Source: Arcicella sp. (GTDB lineage Bacteria > Bacteroidota > Bacteroidia > Cytophagales > Spirosomataceae). From it: a stretch of DNA of 37,442 nt. Of the stretch, positions 16,534 through 25,588 are shown in pieces. Within the stretch, counting starts at the first letter, position 1; every line of letters starts with the position of its first letter. The position numbers and the translations under genes are program-made. The stretch spans positions 1 through 37,442 of the forward strand of contig JACMRQ010000135.1 of NCBI GenBank assembly GCA_014376355.1, given 5' to 3'. Below the pieces are notes generated by a model. That model saw only the letters and a list, made by a program, of their open reading frames with translations, was not told the origin of the DNA and did no database searches.

Positions 16534-17685
16534 TTAATTTTCTTCATCGCTTTCTACTTTAATGATTTCCTTTCTTCCATCCGAGTAGATATAGGTTAAT
16601 TCAACTACGTCCCGTTCCTCATTACTATCTAAAACATAGCTGCCATTATTGGTCGGTCTATCATCAATAAATCTACCTTCAAATTTTTCTCCATTCGGAA
16701 AATAAAAGGTTCCACTTCCATATCTTTTTCCAAGAACATATTCACCGACGTACATTTTTTTACCATTTGCGTAAAAGTGCATTCCATATCCATCTCTTTT
16801 TCCATTTCTCCAAGAACCCTTATAACTTCCTTGCAATGGGTGTATGTAGATTCCGTCTCCGTTAGCACAATCGCCCGTAACGCATCCTATTCTTGAAACT
16901 GAAGATGTTGTTGTTCTACCCATTCCCAAATCTCTCTCCGTCACTTGTACTTGTCTCTGTGGAGTTCTTGTATCATTCCTAACAATTACTTTATTTTCCT
17001 CAACTCGATTCGTTTCTGGAACGTTATTTATTTCAGGTTGAATTGGTTTTGTTTGTGGTCTTTGTGAAATTGTTGATATTCTTGGGTGCATATTTTCCGC
17101 TTCATTCCATCCTTTTTGAATAGCTACAAGTCTTTGCGATTGTGGAGGATGCGTTGAAGTGACAAATTCACCTTGAAAATGTTTCATTGCCTCCTGCGAT
17201 TGTGAAAGATTCGCTCCCATTTCATGCAACCAAAATCCTGAGAAATAATCTGCCTCTAACTCTTTTTCAGGACGACTTCCCGTTCCGTCAATGGTGTGAA
17301 AATTAGCATGATGACCAATTTCATGGGCTAAAATTGAAATTGCTCCCCAATCAGTATGCGTTGTTTCTTCAACCCTGCTCAAAAATGCATTATCATAAAT
17401 AATAAAAGGCTGTCCCTCTATTACAGTTGCAAAACAATTATCAGTATTTGAACACTGCATTACTTTAAATTTCGAATTAACCTGTCCCATCTTCTTGGCA
17501 AATTGTCTAATTACTTGCTCAGCATGGCTGTCGGATACGAACCCTTGCATTTGTGGACAAATCTCTTGAGGAGAAATATTTCTACCGAAATAATTACAAG
17601 CGAAATTATTCTTTCTGTTACTCTGTTGGCTATACGATTGATTTATCAACAAAAAAGTCAATAATACTAATAGTCTGGTTTTCAT
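16534..17685 (-). CDS. M48 family metalloprotease with C-terminal MORN repeats
   Basis: ORF 16534..17733, signal-peptide start MKTRLLVLLTFLLINQSYSQ at 17685; ISILAHEIGHHANFHT (HExxH) plus EADYFSG; C-terminal GSYKGSWRNGKRDGYGMHFYANGKKMYVGEYVLGKRYGSGTFYFPNGEKFEG MORN repeats. Confidence 0.85.
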   Translation of the reverse strand: MKTRLLVLLTFLLINQSYSQQSNRKNNFACNYFGRNISPQEICPQMQGFVSDSHAEQVIRQFAKKMGQVNSKFKVMQCSNTDNCFATVIEGQPFIIYDNAFLSRVEETTHTDWGAISILAHEIGHHANFHTIDGTGSRPEKELEADYFSGFWLHEMGANLSQSQEAMKHFQGEFVTSTHPPQSQRLVAIQKGWNEAENMHPRISTISQRPQTKPIQPEINNVPETNRVEENKVIVRNDTRTPQRQVQVTERDLGMGRTTTSSVSRIGCVTGDCANGDGIYIHPLQGSYKGSWRNGKRDGYGMHFYANGKKMYVGEYVLGKRYGSGTFYFPNGEKFEGRFIDDRPTNNGSYVLDSNEERDVVELTYIYSDGRKEIIKVESDEEN

Positions 17686-17693
17686 GTGGATAA
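17685..17693 (-). promoter_or_regulatory. Perfect DnaA box TTATCCACA (minus strand)
   Basis: TGTGGATAA on + strand. Confidence 0.6.
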
Positions 17694-17704
17694 ACTTACT
17701 TGAA

Positions 17705-17713
17705 TGTGGATAA
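17705..17713 (-). promoter_or_regulatory. Perfect DnaA box TTATCCACA (minus strand)
   Basis: TGTGGATAA on + strand, 20 bp from the previous box. Confidence 0.6.
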
Positions 17714-17815
17714 TTTCGAGTTAATAGAAGCATTTTTCATAAGTAAATTTTTATCATGCTTTGAATGGAAATTATTGAAGATTAAACGGTTGATTTTTTG
17801 ATAATAATTTTAATT

Positions 17816-17824
17816 TTATCCACA
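17816..17824 (+). promoter_or_regulatory. Perfect DnaA box TTATCCACA
   Basis: tttta-ttatccaca-aaaaa. Confidence 0.6.
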
Positions 17825-17826
17825 AA

Positions 17827-17857
17827 AAACCGCAAGTCTTTAAAAAACCTGCGGTTT
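17827..17857 (-). terminator. Putative terminator downstream of the TPR protein gene
   Basis: aaaccgcaagt...acctgcggttt stem with one mismatch, T-tract on the minus strand. Confidence 0.55.
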
Positions 17858-17879
17858 GACATTATTACGAAATTTACAA

Positions 17880-19691
17880 TTAGTTTATTGTATCACCTCT
17901 TAAATTTCTAAATCTTTTTCTGGCATCAGCTCCGTAGATACTCCCAGGATATTTAGTTAATAACTCTTGATATAATTTCATCGCTTTTGCAGGCTGATTT
18001 AATTTTTCTTGATACGTTTTTGCTAAATTATATGTTGCATCATCTCCTTTCAATTCAACGGGAAATTTTTGAATAATGGTTTCCAAATCTTTTACACCTT
18101 TTTCAGTATCCCCTTGTTTTAAATAAGTTGTAGCTCTTAAATAAATAATTTCATCTTCCAATGGGTCGCCTTTGAATGTTTTTTCCATGGTATTCAAACT
18201 GGCAATTGCTTCTTCATTCCTATGCTGAAAAAGCAGTAATTCAACATTTGAATAGGCTTTCATCGCTTTTTCAGTACTATCTGCTCCTGTATTTTCCATG
18301 ATTAATAAACTTAGTTCCATCGCATCATTGGCAATTTCTCTGGTGGTAGCTTGTTTCAAAATATCTAATACTTCCTTCGATAATTCAAAATCTCCTCTAA
18401 AATAAGCTAATTTGGCATTTCTTAATTTAGCATCATATCCTAACGGACTATCTTTTTCAGATTTTTCCACTTGTGAATAAAGTAGCGTAGCTTCCCATGG
18501 TTCAGATTTTAATACATAAATATCTCCTAAATCTAATTTACAACGATCAATAAATTGTTGGTCACCATTAGCCAATTTGATGGCATTTTCCAAAACCACT
18601 ATCGCCGTATCTTTTTCATTCAAGTAAAATGCGTACAATAATCCTTTATTTCTAACCGCTTCAAGGGTTTTCTGATTTGTTCCTAACTCCTCCAACATCT
18701 TAGAATATTCGTTTATCAATAATCTAATATCGGCCGTATTGATAGGATATACACTTTTAATTACTTCCTCTTTTGCATTTATCAACATTCTTCGCCAAAG
18801 TGGATAATTTTGGCTTCGAGGATATTCTTTCACCAAATATTCAAAAATCTTCCCTGAGTTTACGTAGTCCTTATTTTGATGTGCTAAAAATCCTAAATCC
18901 GTTACTTGGACACCTTCTTTACGATAGCGTCTGTCTAAGGCACGTGCTTGTACAAATGCTTTGTAAAATTCTTTCTTTTGGATTAAATGCCAAATCAGGA
19001 CTTCGCTGTAATAAGATTGATCGGGATACTTTTGAACATTTGTGTAAAGTATTTTTTCTAATTGCTCAATTTCCTTTTCATCTTTGAGTTCGTCTTGTAG
19101 GATTGACTGCATCATTTCTCGATAATCAGTCAATAAACCGAACTTTAAGTACTCTTCTATCATTTGAGGAGTTTTGCCTTGAATACGATATAACTTTGCT
19201 AATTGTACCGCAAATTTATTAGGTAATTTTGCATCTTCCCTTGCTTTCTCAATTGTTTGAATTGCTAAATCAAATTGTTGATTCTGGGAGAAATCACTAA
19301 TTAAATCTATTGTTGCCTCCTCGTTTGATTTAACCTTGTCCATTGCGATGGTATATTGTTTTTGAGCTTCCTCATTTTTATTTGCAATTTCCAAGAGACG
19401 TGCATAGTCAGTAAGGTATCTTGCATTACCATCAGAGTTTTTGATTTGCTTTTTGACAAATTTCTCCGCCTCATCAAATTCCTTCAATTTGATGAGCGTT
19501 TGTAAATATGGTTTGTGGATAATTTTTGCAGTCTCCTTATTTTTTGCCAGTTTCTGAAAAATCAATTTTGCTTTTTCATATTCCCCAGCTTTCATGTATT
19601 CCATTCCCAATTCAGTTTCTTGAGCAAATGTTCCGAATGAAAACATTATTAATCCGAGAAGTCCAACTTGCTTCAAAAAACTTTTCAACAT
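17880..19691 (-). CDS. Tetratricopeptide repeat protein with signal peptide
   Basis: ORF 17880..19709; likely start MLKSFLKQVGLLGLIMFSFGTFAQ; multiple TPR-like helical repeats (MEYMKAGEYEKAKLIFQKLAKN; TYNLAKTYQEKLNQPAKAMKLYQELLTKYPGSIYGADARKRFRNLRG). Confidence 0.85.
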   Translation of the reverse strand: MLKSFLKQVGLLGLIMFSFGTFAQETELGMEYMKAGEYEKAKLIFQKLAKNKETAKIIHKPYLQTLIKLKEFDEAEKFVKKQIKNSDGNARYLTDYARLLEIANKNEEAQKQYTIAMDKVKSNEEATIDLISDFSQNQQFDLAIQTIEKAREDAKLPNKFAVQLAKLYRIQGKTPQMIEEYLKFGLLTDYREMMQSILQDELKDEKEIEQLEKILYTNVQKYPDQSYYSEVLIWHLIQKKEFYKAFVQARALDRRYRKEGVQVTDLGFLAHQNKDYVNSGKIFEYLVKEYPRSQNYPLWRRMLINAKEEVIKSVYPINTADIRLLINEYSKMLEELGTNQKTLEAVRNKGLLYAFYLNEKDTAIVVLENAIKLANGDQQFIDRCKLDLGDIYVLKSEPWEATLLYSQVEKSEKDSPLGYDAKLRNAKLAYFRGDFELSKEVLDILKQATTREIANDAMELSLLIMENTGADSTEKAMKAYSNVELLLFQHRNEEAIASLNTMEKTFKGDPLEDEIIYLRATTYLKQGDTEKGVKDLETIIQKFPVELKGDDATYNLAKTYQEKLNQPAKAMKLYQELLTKYPGSIYGADARKRFRNLRGDTIN

Positions 19692-20276
19692 TACATTATA
19701 ATAAATCATTATTTTTTATTTTTAAATTTTTCAAGAAAAGAAAACTATTATCTCTATTATGCTGTGGATATGTGGATATCCTTTGTGAAACATTTTTTTC
19801 ACGACTCCATGTTTACTTTACAATAATTATCCACATTTATTATCGAGTTATCAACACATAACTAATTGAATAACAGTAGTTTTAAAAACTTACCACTTAA
19901 ATGTGCATAAGTATTGTTATTTTATCAACGCTGTCCACAATGACTTTGTTGTCTGATAACTATGTCGTTAAGTACCAGATATATCCGATACTTATCCACA
20001 TTCATTATTGCTCATTTTATTAATCCACAATGCCGTCCATTTTTTCCACAAATTTATTGTTCAAAAATCATACCTTATCCACGCTTTATGGGTGTTTATC
20101 TCTTCTTTTAGTATAGTTATACACATAAATTTATGGAGAAAATTTATAAATTTATTACTTTCAAATTTTATAAGTTATCCTTCTTGTCTACACTTTTGAA
20201 AATAGAAAATTGGTTAAATGGCTTAAAATTGTTGATCATTCCTGAAATTTCTCCTTCTCAAAATGCATAATTTGTA
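19692..20276. other. oriC: Candidate chromosomal replication origin (oriC): DnaA-box cluster in the longest intergenic region of the window
   Basis: Perfect TTATCCACA at 19827-19835 and 19992-20000; TTWTNCACA matches at 19902-19910 (minus), 20042-20050 and 20117-20125; single-mismatch boxes at 19763-19771, 19771-19779, 19848-19856, 20021-20029 and 20075-20083; very AT-rich flanks (19690-19760, 20120-20175). Confidence 0.7.
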
Positions 20277-21911
20277 CTACTCGATTACAAAATCATACCC
20301 CGTCAATTCAAAATTTTGTTTCAATTTAATCTTATCAGACGAATATTTAATAATTTCTGGAATCTGATTTTTTTCTAAATCTCCCGAATCCCATTTACCA
20401 TTTCCATTCTCATCAACAATTAATCTTATGTAATATATACCTGCTTTTACAAAGGCAAATTCATATTTCAAAATGTTGTCCACTTTTTGAATAACTTGAT
20501 ACTGTTCATCTAAAAGTTCTACAAAAAAAGTTTTTTTATTGGGATTTTTAATCTCTCCACTAATTGTTCCATAATTTTCGGGATTACGAACTGGATGGGT
20601 TGAAACAAAATTTGTTGTTGAATCATTCTCTACAGATATAAATGTGCCTCTTGGTATTTTTAATCTTACAAAATCTTTCGGCTTTTTTCCGTCAACTTTA
20701 ATTTTTACTTCCGTTTTCTCTTTATTCCACACTATGTCTTTTTCTGTTACGAGTACTCGCACAAGTGTATCGTTCATAAATTCAATTTTATTCAAATCGA
20801 AAATTTTAATTGGTTTCGTAAAAGTAAAAGTATATCCTACTTCTTTTAAATCTATATCTTCCCCATTTGATGGTTTTGTTTTCATATTAAACTCCTCTTT
20901 TACACCTTCATTCTTTTTTGGTTTTTCTTTAAATTTAATTTTTTGATCATGTGTAAAAACTCTATCCAAAGAGTCTATAACTGATATTTTTACCTTAATA
21001 GTATCATTATAAACTTGATTTGTATTAAAAATTCTTATACTTTTTGCTTCGACTTGTTGGTAAACCATACTGTCTTTTTTATCGACAAAATTTATTTTAA
21101 CATTTTTGATTCCTCTGTAATAATCAATGTAAGCGTAATTTGATGTTGTTCTTACTTTTAAAACTTTATTAGGAATTTTTTCCATCTTCGCCACATTAAT
21201 TTCTAAATTTTCTTTATTCGTTTTTAAAATAATAGTATCTACAACTATTCCTATATTTTCTTTTGCTTCATCGTATAATAAGTTATTATTTACATCAGTA
21301 ACTGCATAAATTCTGTATTTTCCAGCAGCTACATTTTCGATGGTAAATATTCCTGAACTATCAGTTTTCATAAAATAATAAGGTTTATTCTTCTTTGGAT
21401 TTAAAGTATCTGAATAAATATACATTCCCACACTTACATCCATAATAGGTTTATTGGTTAATGGATTTCTCACTTTTCCACTCACTTTTAATGAGTCAAT
21501 GACACTTCCTGTACTAAAAACCAACCGAATATTTTTAGCTATATTTCTTTCATTCATATCTTTAAAGGTATTTCTGAAATTTAAGCTGTAAGTCGTATTT
21601 TCTTTAAAAGGCTTATCGAAAGTTAATCTTGCTCCTTTTGGCATAACTTTCGTTTCATACGTTCCTTCCAAATTTGGTGTAATTGATAATTGTTGTTGAA
21701 TATTATCTATACTCACATACTCATCAAACAAAATATCTATTTGTTTCCCATTAAAATTTCTTGATTGATTTTCTGGAATTATTTTAACAATTCTTGGAGC
21801 AAGTGTATCTTTCTTTCCTCCTGTTGGTGCTACTATTTGAGCGCAACTCAACAGCATTTCGGTAATTATTAAACTCAAAAAACTTATCAATACTATGTGT
21901 TTCAACTTCAT
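20277..21911 (-). CDS. Ig-like domain (SbsA/Big-type) lipoprotein
   Basis: Lipobox LLSCAQIVAPTGGKKDTLAPRIVKIIPENQSRNFNGKQIDILFDEYV; carboxypeptidase-regulatory-like segment SGIFTIENVAAGKYRIYAVTDVNNNLLYD; 544 aa. Confidence 0.8.
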   Translation of the reverse strand: MKLKHIVLISFLSLIITEMLLSCAQIVAPTGGKKDTLAPRIVKIIPENQSRNFNGKQIDILFDEYVSIDNIQQQLSITPNLEGTYETKVMPKGARLTFDKPFKENTTYSLNFRNTFKDMNERNIAKNIRLVFSTGSVIDSLKVSGKVRNPLTNKPIMDVSVGMYIYSDTLNPKKNKPYYFMKTDSSGIFTIENVAAGKYRIYAVTDVNNNLLYDEAKENIGIVVDTIILKTNKENLEINVAKMEKIPNKVLKVRTTSNYAYIDYYRGIKNVKINFVDKKDSMVYQQVEAKSIRIFNTNQVYNDTIKVKISVIDSLDRVFTHDQKIKFKEKPKKNEGVKEEFNMKTKPSNGEDIDLKEVGYTFTFTKPIKIFDLNKIEFMNDTLVRVLVTEKDIVWNKEKTEVKIKVDGKKPKDFVRLKIPRGTFISVENDSTTNFVSTHPVRNPENYGTISGEIKNPNKKTFFVELLDEQYQVIQKVDNILKYEFAFVKAGIYYIRLIVDENGNGKWDSGDLEKNQIPEIIKYSSDKIKLKQNFELTGYDFVIE

Positions 21912-21929
21912 ATAAATATGTTAATAAAT

Positions 21930-21938
21930 TGTGGATAA
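21930..21938 (-). promoter_or_regulatory. Perfect DnaA box TTATCCACA (minus strand)
   Basis: TGTGGATAA just upstream of the Ig-like lipoprotein gene. Confidence 0.5.
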
Positions 21939-22091: not shown

Positions 22092-22976
22092 TTAATTTTT
22101 CTTAAATACATAAATCAAACTTGAATAATTTCCTTCATTTTTCTTTGCATTATGATTTGATCTGAAGCCGTCTATAAATGCTTTAAAGTAATTAATTTTA
22201 CCAGTTTGATATTTTGTACTCAGCATTGAAACATAAAAAGAATCAAACTTCATTGGTAAAGTTTCTTTTAACTGAAACCCTTTTTCGCTAAACAACTTTG
22301 TGATAGATTTTTGGGAAAAATGATACAAATGTCTGGGAACATCATAAGCCGCCCATTTCTCTTGATACAGTTCTGCATCTTTAGATTCGTGATTTGGAAC
22401 GGCAATAATTAGTAATCCATCTTCATAAAGTCTTTCTTTTAACCAATTAATTGTTTCATTTAATAAGTGAATGTGTTCAAGTACGTGCCACATCGTAATT
22501 ATATTAAATTGCTCGTTTTGAAATGAAGATAAAATTTCAGTTTTAATAATAGCTTCAATACTTTTTTCAGCAATTTGTCTTGCTCCCGAATCTGGTTCAA
22601 TGCCACTTACCTTCCAACCATTCTCATTAGCTTGGTTTAAAAACATACCCGTTCCACATCCTACGTCTAATAATTTTCCTTTTTGTGGACAGAGTCTATT
22701 AATTAAATTTACTTTACTTTTTAGCGTATATTTTCTAACGGCATGATAAATTTTTGCAATCAATCCTTTAGAAGTATTTGTGTGTGAAATATAAGATTCT
22801 GCCTTGTAATACTCTCCCATCTCATTTGAGTTAGGTCGTGGATTTGTAAATTTGAACCCACATGATTTACAACCAACAATTTGAAAGTTCTCATTACTAA
22901 CCGTATAATCTTTTACCTCTAAATATTTTTCAAAGGTATTATTTTGGCAAACTGGGCAATTACTTATTTGTTCCAT
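22092..22976 (-). CDS. Class I SAM-dependent methyltransferase with N-terminal zinc-ribbon-like CxxC motifs
   Basis: CPVCQNNTFEKYLEVKDYTVSNENFQIVGCKSCGFKFTNPRP; GKLLDVGCGTGMFLNQANENGWKVSGIEPD; ITMWHVLEHI. Confidence 0.9.
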   Translation of the reverse strand: MEQISNCPVCQNNTFEKYLEVKDYTVSNENFQIVGCKSCGFKFTNPRPNSNEMGEYYKAESYISHTNTSKGLIAKIYHAVRKYTLKSKVNLINRLCPQKGKLLDVGCGTGMFLNQANENGWKVSGIEPDSGARQIAEKSIEAIIKTEILSSFQNEQFNIITMWHVLEHIHLLNETINWLKERLYEDGLLIIAVPNHESKDAELYQEKWAAYDVPRHLYHFSQKSITKLFSEKGFQLKETLPMKFDSFYVSMLSTKYQTGKINYFKAFIDGFRSNHNAKKNEGNYSSLIYVFKKN

Positions 22977-23195: not shown

Positions 23196-25058
23196 CTATC
23201 TTCCAATATAAATCATTAAAACTGAAATATCTGATACTGAAACACCACTTATTCTTGAAGCTTGTCCAATTGTTTGAGGTCTAATTTTTGTTAATTTCTG
23301 ACGACCTTCGATAGAAATTGTCTTTAATTTCATATAGTCAAATTCTGTCGGAATATTTAAGTTTTCTAAACGTTGAAGTTTATTAACCATTAATTGTTCC
23401 TTTTCGATATAACTTTCATATTTAACATTTATTTCAGCTTGTTCTAATACTTCGTCTGCATATTTTGAAAACAATATTTCTGTTTCCTCTGTCAATGTTC
23501 TTAGATGAGGAATTTCAATATTTGGTCTTCTTAATAAATTCCAGAGTGATACTCTTTCTCTCAATGTTGCTGTCCCAAAGCTTTCTAATTTTTCATTTAC
23601 TTCATTTGGATTTACTTTTAATACTTTTATCTCCTCTATCAATTCATTTGTTTGACTTATTTTATGTTGAACATTTACTAATCTGTCATTCGATGCTAAT
23701 CCAATTGAATATCCTCTGGCTGTCAAACGAACATCGGCATTATCCTGTCGTAATAATGTTCTGTATTCGGCTCTTGAAGTAAACATTCTGTATGGCTCAT
23801 CAGTGCCTTTATTAATTAAATCATCAATCAAAACCCCAATGTATGCTTCCGAACGATTAAGTACGAAGTCAGGTAATTCATTAATTTTTTGATGGGCATT
23901 TATCCCTGCCATTAATCCTTGACAAGCAGCTTCTTCATAGCCAGTTGTTCCGTTTATTTGTCCTGCAAAAAATAAATTACTTATTCTTTTTGTTTCTAAG
24001 GTAGCTTTTAATTGTGTTGGTGGAAAGAAATCATATTCAATAGCATATCCTGGACGAAACATTTTTACATTCTCAAATCCTGGAATTTTTTTTAAGGCTT
24101 CGTATTGTACATCTTCTGGTAGTGATGTTGAAAAACCATTCACATAAACTTCAACTGTATTCCATCCTTCTGGTTCAACGAATATTTGATGGCGGTCTTT
24201 ATCTGCAAAACGATTTATTTTATCTTCTACTGACGGACAATATCTTGGACCTAACCCTTTTATTCTACCTGCAAACATCGGAGATTTATCGAAGCCAGTT
24301 TTTAATACATCATGGACTTCTTGATTAGTGTAAGTTATCCAACAGCTTCGTTGGTTTACTAATGGTTTTGTATCCGTGTAGGAAAACTTACATGGATTTT
24401 CATCTCCTTTTTGTTCTTCCATCTTAGAAAAATCTAAACTTCTCGCATCTACTCTTGGAGGCGTTCCTGTTTTCATCCGACCAGCCTCAAAACCTAATTC
24501 AATCAATTGTTCAGTAATTCCAGTAGCTTTTCCTTCTGCAGTTCTACCTCCACCAAAATTCTTTTCTCCAATATGAATCAATCCATTCAAGAATGTTCCA
24601 TTTGTCAGCACTACTGATTTCGCAACAAATTCTACACCTAATTGCGTTTTCACTCCTACTACTTTATTATCTTCTATTAATAACCCAGATACCATCTCTT
24701 GCCAAAAATCCACATTATAATTTTGTTCTAATGCCATTCTCCACTCCTCTGCAAATTTCATTCTATCCGACTGACATCGTGGCGACCACATAGCAGGCCC
24801 CTTTGAACGATTTAGCATTCGAAATTGAATCATTGTTTTATCTGAAATAATTCCTGACATTCCTCCAAGTGCATCTATTTCACGAACAATTTGTCCTTTT
24901 GCAACTCCACCCATCGCTGGATTGCAAGACATTTGAGCTATGGTATTCATATTCATAGTAATTAATAAAACCTTTGAACCCATTTTTGCGGCAGCGTGTG
25001 CTGCCTCGCACCCTGCGTGTCCTGCCCCTACTACTATTACATCATAATTTTTGTACAT
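23196..25058 (-). CDS. mnmG: tRNA uridine-5-carboxymethylaminomethyl(34) synthesis enzyme MnmG (GidA)
   Basis: [99 protein letters not shown]; 620 aa. Confidence 0.98.
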
Positions 25059-25133: not shown

Positions 25134-25149
25134 TGTTTCACGTGGAGTG
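25134..25149 (+). promoter_or_regulatory. Degenerate parS-like site (TGTTTCACGTGGAGTG)
   Basis: Perfect left half and CACGTG core of TGTTTCACGTGAAACA; right half diverges. Confidence 0.3.
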
Positions 25150-25174: not shown

Positions 25175-25588
25175 TTAAAAAATCGAAATATATTTACTCT
25201 CCAAACGCCTCATTTCTACTTTTTCTTCAATCGAATGATCATCATGTCCACATAAGTGTAAGAGCCCATGTATAACAACCCGTTTAATTTCTTCCTCAAA
25301 AACAGTATTTAATGTTTGTGAGTTCTCTTTAACTCTTTCGATACTGACAAATATATCACCTTCAATGGTACTTTCATCTTCTGAATTATCAAAGGTTATG
25401 ATATCAGTTAAGGTATCATGGTCTAAATAATCAACATTAATTTTATGTAAATACTCGTCAGAACAAAAGATATAGTTTAGGTCTTTAATCTTAAAACCCT
25501 CTTTATCAGCCACTTTCTTTAACCAAGCTTTAAAATTATTTTTGCCTTGAAATTTAAAATCAATATCTTCGTTAAAAAAAATAATCAT
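25175..25588 (-). CDS. ybeY: Endoribonuclease YbeY (rRNA maturation factor)
   Basis: VIHGLLHLCGHDDHSIEEKVEMRRLE (H3xH5xH metal motif); 137 aa. Confidence 0.93.
   Translation of the reverse strand: MIIFFNEDIDFKFQGKNNFKAWLKKVADKEGFKIKDLNYIFCSDEYLHKINVDYLDHDTLTDIITFDNSEDESTIEGDIFVSIERVKENSQTLNTVFEEEIKRVVIHGLLHLCGHDDHSIEEKVEMRRLESKYISIF

Follow-up and report, generated by a model that had tools for sequence, protein, structure and literature searches.

The dnaA gene is the usual landmark for locating a replication origin. Studies have shown that oriC is not always near dnaA (PMC10225481). The oriC regions of DoriC/Ori-Finder (PMC6323995, PMC10225481) combine a TTATCCACA-type cluster with an AT-rich stretch, a nearby GC-skew minimum and a close mnmG/gidA. 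The Arcicella gap described here resembles them in these respects, whereas its position away from dnaA, between a Big_5 gene and a TPR gene, sets it apart. In the literature searched, DoriC entries aside, we found no published description of a Big_5/TPR neighbourhood of oriC.

The BUS of B. subtilis and others (PMC8287927, PMC10721633) consists of tandem boxes followed, after a short spacer, by three or more 3'-NAN-5' trinucleotides within 16 bp and then by AT-rich DNA. The trios have been described in a 5' tail (PMC8287927). The same elements are found in Arcicella, but its tandem boxes share one base, where the published search assumes a separation of up to 3 bp, and the trinucleotides most similar to TAG read on the strand opposite the canonical one. 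In the bipartite origins of B. subtilis and H. pylori (PMC8235120), as at this locus, a gene is flanked by box groups; the intervening gene is dnaA there and the TPR gene in Arcicella, and the likeness lies in the box positions. For the ParB-parS centromere (TGTTTCACGTGAAACA), the counterpart in relatives is a tandem of near-consensus sites beside mnmG, some 5 kb away from the boxes, whereas the window keeps only one half-degenerate site.

The intergenic gap and its DnaA boxes

The window analyzed in this study is a stretch of 37,442 bp, the entire contig C383 of a draft genome (hereafter the home genome; 4.67 Mb, 524 contigs, 6.9% contamination). Identities of 74-93% between its TPR protein and named Arcicella proteins place the genome within or beside the genus Arcicella. 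The genes around the locus all run leftward, in the order M48/MORN, TPR, gap, Big_5, methyltransferase, mnmG and ybeY (Table 1). The GC content of the region is 27-32%, and Rfam and tRNA scans of the window gave no matches. The first-pass annotation, made from the sequence alone, had singled out the gap before the TPR gene as the longest in the window, at roughly 585 bp, and had proposed it as oriC. The gap does measure 585 bp, and the next longest between predicted genes is 527 bp. We believe that this gap is almost certainly the oriC of this Arcicella genome because of its box enrichment, its synteny, the skew switch in relatives, the conserved unwinding module and the parS pairs in relatives. 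In kind, it is a DnaA-dependent oriC that is unlinked to dnaA and previously unannotated, in an aquatic bacterium of an under-described lineage.

Table 1. Coordinates of the proposed origin locus and neighbouring features in the window.
Feature	Position	Strand	Basis or remark
M48/MORN protein gene	16534-17733	leftward	
Flanking DnaA-box group (17685-, 17705-, 17816+), gap downstream of TPR gene	17685..17824	.	also at the same place in L031, L032, L033, L034
TPR-repeat protein gene, conserved left flank	17880..19709	-	alternative start ATG at 19691
DnaA box TTATCCACA within TPR gene	19514..19522	-	
AT-rich presumed duplex-unwinding element, ends at TPR gene start	19690..19740	.	duplex stability and conservation
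Proposed oriC core, intergenic gap, ten DnaA boxes (<=1 mismatch)	19692..20276	.	box scan and syntenic cluster in relatives
Trinucleotide-periodic tract (CTATTATCTCTATTATGC), conserved, DnaA-trio-like, adjoins paired boxes	19740..19762	+	alignment; PMC8287927 rule
Tandem DnaA boxes ATATCCACA/ATATCCACA, one-base overlap (8-bp register), CACA ends toward unwinding region	19763..19779	-	alignment; conserved in Cytophagales
Palindrome GTGAAACATTTTTTTCAC (GTGAAAN6TTTCAC)	19785..19802	.	conserved in Arcicella and some nearby genera, beside the paired boxes
DnaA box TTATCCACA (perfect)	19827..19835	+	perfect or one mismatch in aligned relatives
DnaA box TTATCAACA	19848..19856	+	position conserved
DnaA box TTATGCACA	19902..19910	-	position conserved
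DnaA box TTATCCACA (perfect)	19992..20000	+	
DnaA box TAATCCACA	20021..20029	+	
DnaA box TTTTCCACA	20042..20050	+	
DnaA box TTATCCACG	20075..20083	+	
DnaA box TTATACACA	20117..20125	+	perfect TTATCCACA there in most sister species
Big_5 (bacterial Ig-like) protein gene, conserved right flank	20277..21911	-	
DnaA box TTATCCACA, gap upstream of Big_5 gene	21930..21938	-	
Methyltransferase gene	22092-22976	leftward	
mnmG/gidA	23196..25058	-	
Degenerate parS-like site TGTTTCACGTGGAGTG between mnmG and ybeY	25134..25149	+	sister species carry CACTCCACGTGAAACA or intact sites here
ybeY	25175-25588	leftward	

Every box reported earlier for the gap was present, namely perfect TTATCCACA at 19827 and 19992, TTWTNCACA matches at 19902 (minus strand), 20042 and 20117, and one-mismatch boxes at 19763 and 19771 (both minus strand), 19848, 20021 and 20075. 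The whole window holds nine perfect boxes rather than the eight counted at first, of which seven fall within 17685-21938, as had been stated. Dinucleotide shuffles gave an expectation of 0.46 perfect boxes, and none reached 9. TTWTNCACA matches numbered 17 against 7.4 expected, and boxes with at most one mismatch 32 against 12.4; no shuffle reached either count. The densest 585 bp contained 10 boxes with at most one mismatch, compared with a maximum of 3 in 40 Markov-1 random sequences of 37 kb. The home genome has 88 perfect TTATCCACA boxes in 4.67 Mb (29 for the reversed control), and seven of the 88 fall inside 4.25 kb at this locus (P ~2e-12 per window, ~2e-9 genome-wide). By analogy with bipartite origins, a second sub-region may be made up of the boxes at 17685-17824, 19514 and 21930.

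No cluster of more than four boxes was found around 30 other perfect boxes checked in the home genome. Contig C37 (L004/L005, ~10.9-12.2 kb) carries, within 585 bp, four DnaA boxes with at most one mismatch each, away from oriC, and this cluster could be a DnaA-titration site. In the complete relative G001, 16 perfect boxes lie in 5 kb at the syntenic locus, the densest cluster among the matches listed. Groups of 2-4 perfect boxes also occur on G001:C6 at 3561569-3562649, 3788957-3788977 and 3977974-3978009, 50-240 kb from oriC; these are possibly titration or regulatory sites.

The presumed unwinding module and the palindrome

Nine sequences from Arcicella and close relatives were aligned over the module. 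The block 19740-19808 was nearly invariant, with the constant order CTAYTAYHTCTAT-TAT, paired boxes (TGTGGATATGTGGAT in the window) and GTGAAAN6TTTCAC. The paired-box motif TATNCACNTATNCACA has a single occurrence in the 4.67-Mb home genome, at this gap. In 46 loci, the paired boxes upstream of the TPR gene had at most 3 mismatches in 35, while the best match in control windows usually had 5-6.

The trinucleotide periodicity of the adjoining tract was evaluated in 26 non-redundant loci, where lags 3, 6 and 9 beat all 200 shuffles and the mean trio run was 3.9 against a shuffle maximum of 3.7. On either strand, the runs were longer than in the shuffles (means 3.9 and 4.2), which favours neither strand. 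In locus L035, the box strand reads TAA-TAG-AAG-TAG-TAG. The published BUS rule (PMC8287927) asks for a box with at most 2 mismatches, a spacer of 0-16 bp and at least three 3'-NAN-5' trinucleotides; the window satisfies it with a run of five at spacer 11, although the rule is loose in AT-rich DNA. Beyond the periodic tract lies the least stable DNA of the region. Of all 50-bp windows in the 37 kb, those beginning at 19690 and 20107 rank 4th and 8th for low duplex stability, so that neither is unique. Both AT-rich stretches named in the first-pass annotation as unwinding candidates are real, but conservation and a place beside the paired boxes are limited to the left one (19690-19740); in several Arcicella species, the right one (20120-20175) is shorter or absent.

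GTGAAAN6TTTCAC occurs once each in the home genome, G046 and G059, always at this gap. A perfect or one-mismatch copy was present in 12 of 30 family gaps, and 300 shuffled gaps gave 2 copies within one mismatch and none perfect. The half-sites of this palindrome look like parS half-sites turned outward. Its near-uniqueness to the gap in Arcicella and the 1-bp overlap of the tandem boxes are new, minor features. A further idea is that Cytophagales have their own distinct form of the unwinding module at the origin, with overlapping boxes in 8-bp register, DnaA perhaps on the TAG/TAA strand opposite to the B. subtilis polarity, and a palindrome-binding protein controlling initiation in Arcicella and close genera; we regard this as rather unlikely. 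The module of paired boxes, trios and AT-rich DNA offers a well-sampled Bacteroidota case bearing on the universality of the BUS.

Synteny, GC skew and the position of dnaA

The arrangement of Big_5 gene, gap and TPR gene carries the box cluster throughout the family and in much of the order. In 30 family genomes, the 3' side of the Big_5 gene had a mean of 11.1 boxes (at most one mismatch) in 1.5 kb versus 1.3 on the 5' side. The conservation beside the same TPR and Ig-like genes that had been suggested as a check was found throughout the family. The cluster lies just upstream of the TPR gene in named Arcicella, many Cyclobacteriaceae and other Cytophagales loci. Some family members have few boxes at the syntenic gap, and no recognisable boxes were seen at the locus in a few lineages (L041-L044, Pontibacter and Adhaeribacter). 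The linkage is not general in the class, where 29 class-level loci averaged 1.1 boxes; the three class-level loci with 5-9 boxes belong to the same order as Arcicella. Whole-genome box lists of four class members gave no clear common cluster, except in G095, where three boxes lie 2-3 kb beyond the 3' end of the Big_5 gene.

Tandem parS-like sites were located about 5 kb upstream of the TPR gene, on the mnmG side, in most order-level loci. They also lie beside the locus in G046, G056, G019 and G029, and G039 has one perfect site. The single TGTTTCACGTGAAACA-like site of the window is half-degenerate, with 3 mismatches. In Arcicella, one half of parS is mostly degenerate (CACTCCACGTGAAACA), a state common to several species, and most other Cytophagales have two intact sites.

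GC skew was measured in 20-kb samples around the chromosomes of three complete relatives (G056, G042 and G001), and a two-arc model was fitted. For the home genome, a 524-contig draft, the origin was compared with skew only through the syntenic locus in these relatives; inside the window, no skew switch was visible, both sides having mostly negative skew and leftward genes. In G056, the switch fell between the last sample of the contig (5.177 Mb) and its first, within approximately 15-25 kb of the locus at 5.165 Mb. In G042, it fell between the samples centred on 1.31 and 1.475 Mb, and the locus at 1.478 Mb lies beside that interval. The best-fit switch of G001 was at 3.91-4.01 Mb, 170-270 kb from the locus at 3.740 Mb, and 3.745-3.765 Mb fitted about 2 log units worse. 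None of 60 shuffled samples fitted as well in any of the three. The GC-skew check proposed in the first-pass annotation therefore gave close agreement with the locus in G056 and G042 and loose agreement in G001. Samples of 20 kb are too coarse to single out the gap from its neighbours, which the sequence anatomy does.

As a marker of the origin, dnaA was rejected. It lies at 3.394 Mb in G056, 4.811 Mb in G042 and 0.0002 Mb in G001, on the circle 1.6-1.8 Mb from the locus in all three, inside an arc and away from the switch. A skew switch near the locus together with dnaA inside an arc indicates an origin near the locus, not at dnaA, and the origin locus is not linked to dnaA. In Cytophagales, dnaA is a misleading landmark, at which two of eight complete or near-complete relatives start; the start of the G001 sequence at dnaA is 1.7 Mb from the origin. 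G001:C6 and G019:C1 begin at dnaA (positions 184 and 59) with the origin locus elsewhere, so the origin is not at position 1 in either. Skew, gene-dosage and growth-rate (peak-to-trough) analyses need correct origins, and the gap would provide a precise oriC for Arcicella and, via synteny, for much of Cytophagales.

Alternative explanations and proposed mechanism

Box clusters alone are no proof of an origin. The cluster might be a titration or reactivation site of the datA/DARS type with the true origin elsewhere, for example at dnaA, and smaller clusters do exist (four boxes in 585 bp on C37, and the group at 3.5625 Mb in G001). We consider this very improbable: the skew switch is at or near the locus rather than dnaA in three complete relatives, the home dnaA contig C437 has a single perfect box, and a BUS-like module is present here together with parS pairs. 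Even less credit can be given to the reading of the boxes as transcriptional DnaA operators of the TPR gene and its neighbours with no role in initiation. The module does end at the TPR start and so overlaps the TPR promoter region, but ten boxes, an order-wide architecture of tandem boxes, trios and AT-rich DNA, and a skew switch would not be expected of operators. Chance enrichment has an equally negligible probability. A GC content of 27-32% raises the number of matches, but the shuffles already allow for fewer than one perfect box against the nine seen, and box position is conserved across species, by which the chance reading is already refuted.

With the gap taken as oriC, initiation would proceed there as follows. 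DnaA would fill the box array across 19763-20125, perhaps with help from the boxes further out at 17.7, 19.5 and 21.9 kb. Starting at the tandem boxes (19763-19779), DnaA would spread to the left along one strand of the periodic tract, and the AT-rich DNA at 19690-19740 would melt. The helicase would then be loaded at the melted stretch, and two forks would depart in opposite directions. The ParB-parS site by mnmG, approximately 5 kb away, would segregate the new origins.

Eight draft relatives (G014, G028, G021, G008, G034, G036, G052 and G050) each have a contig end roughly 5.7 kb from the Big_5 gene, and a repeat may be located at that point, perhaps an rRNA operon.
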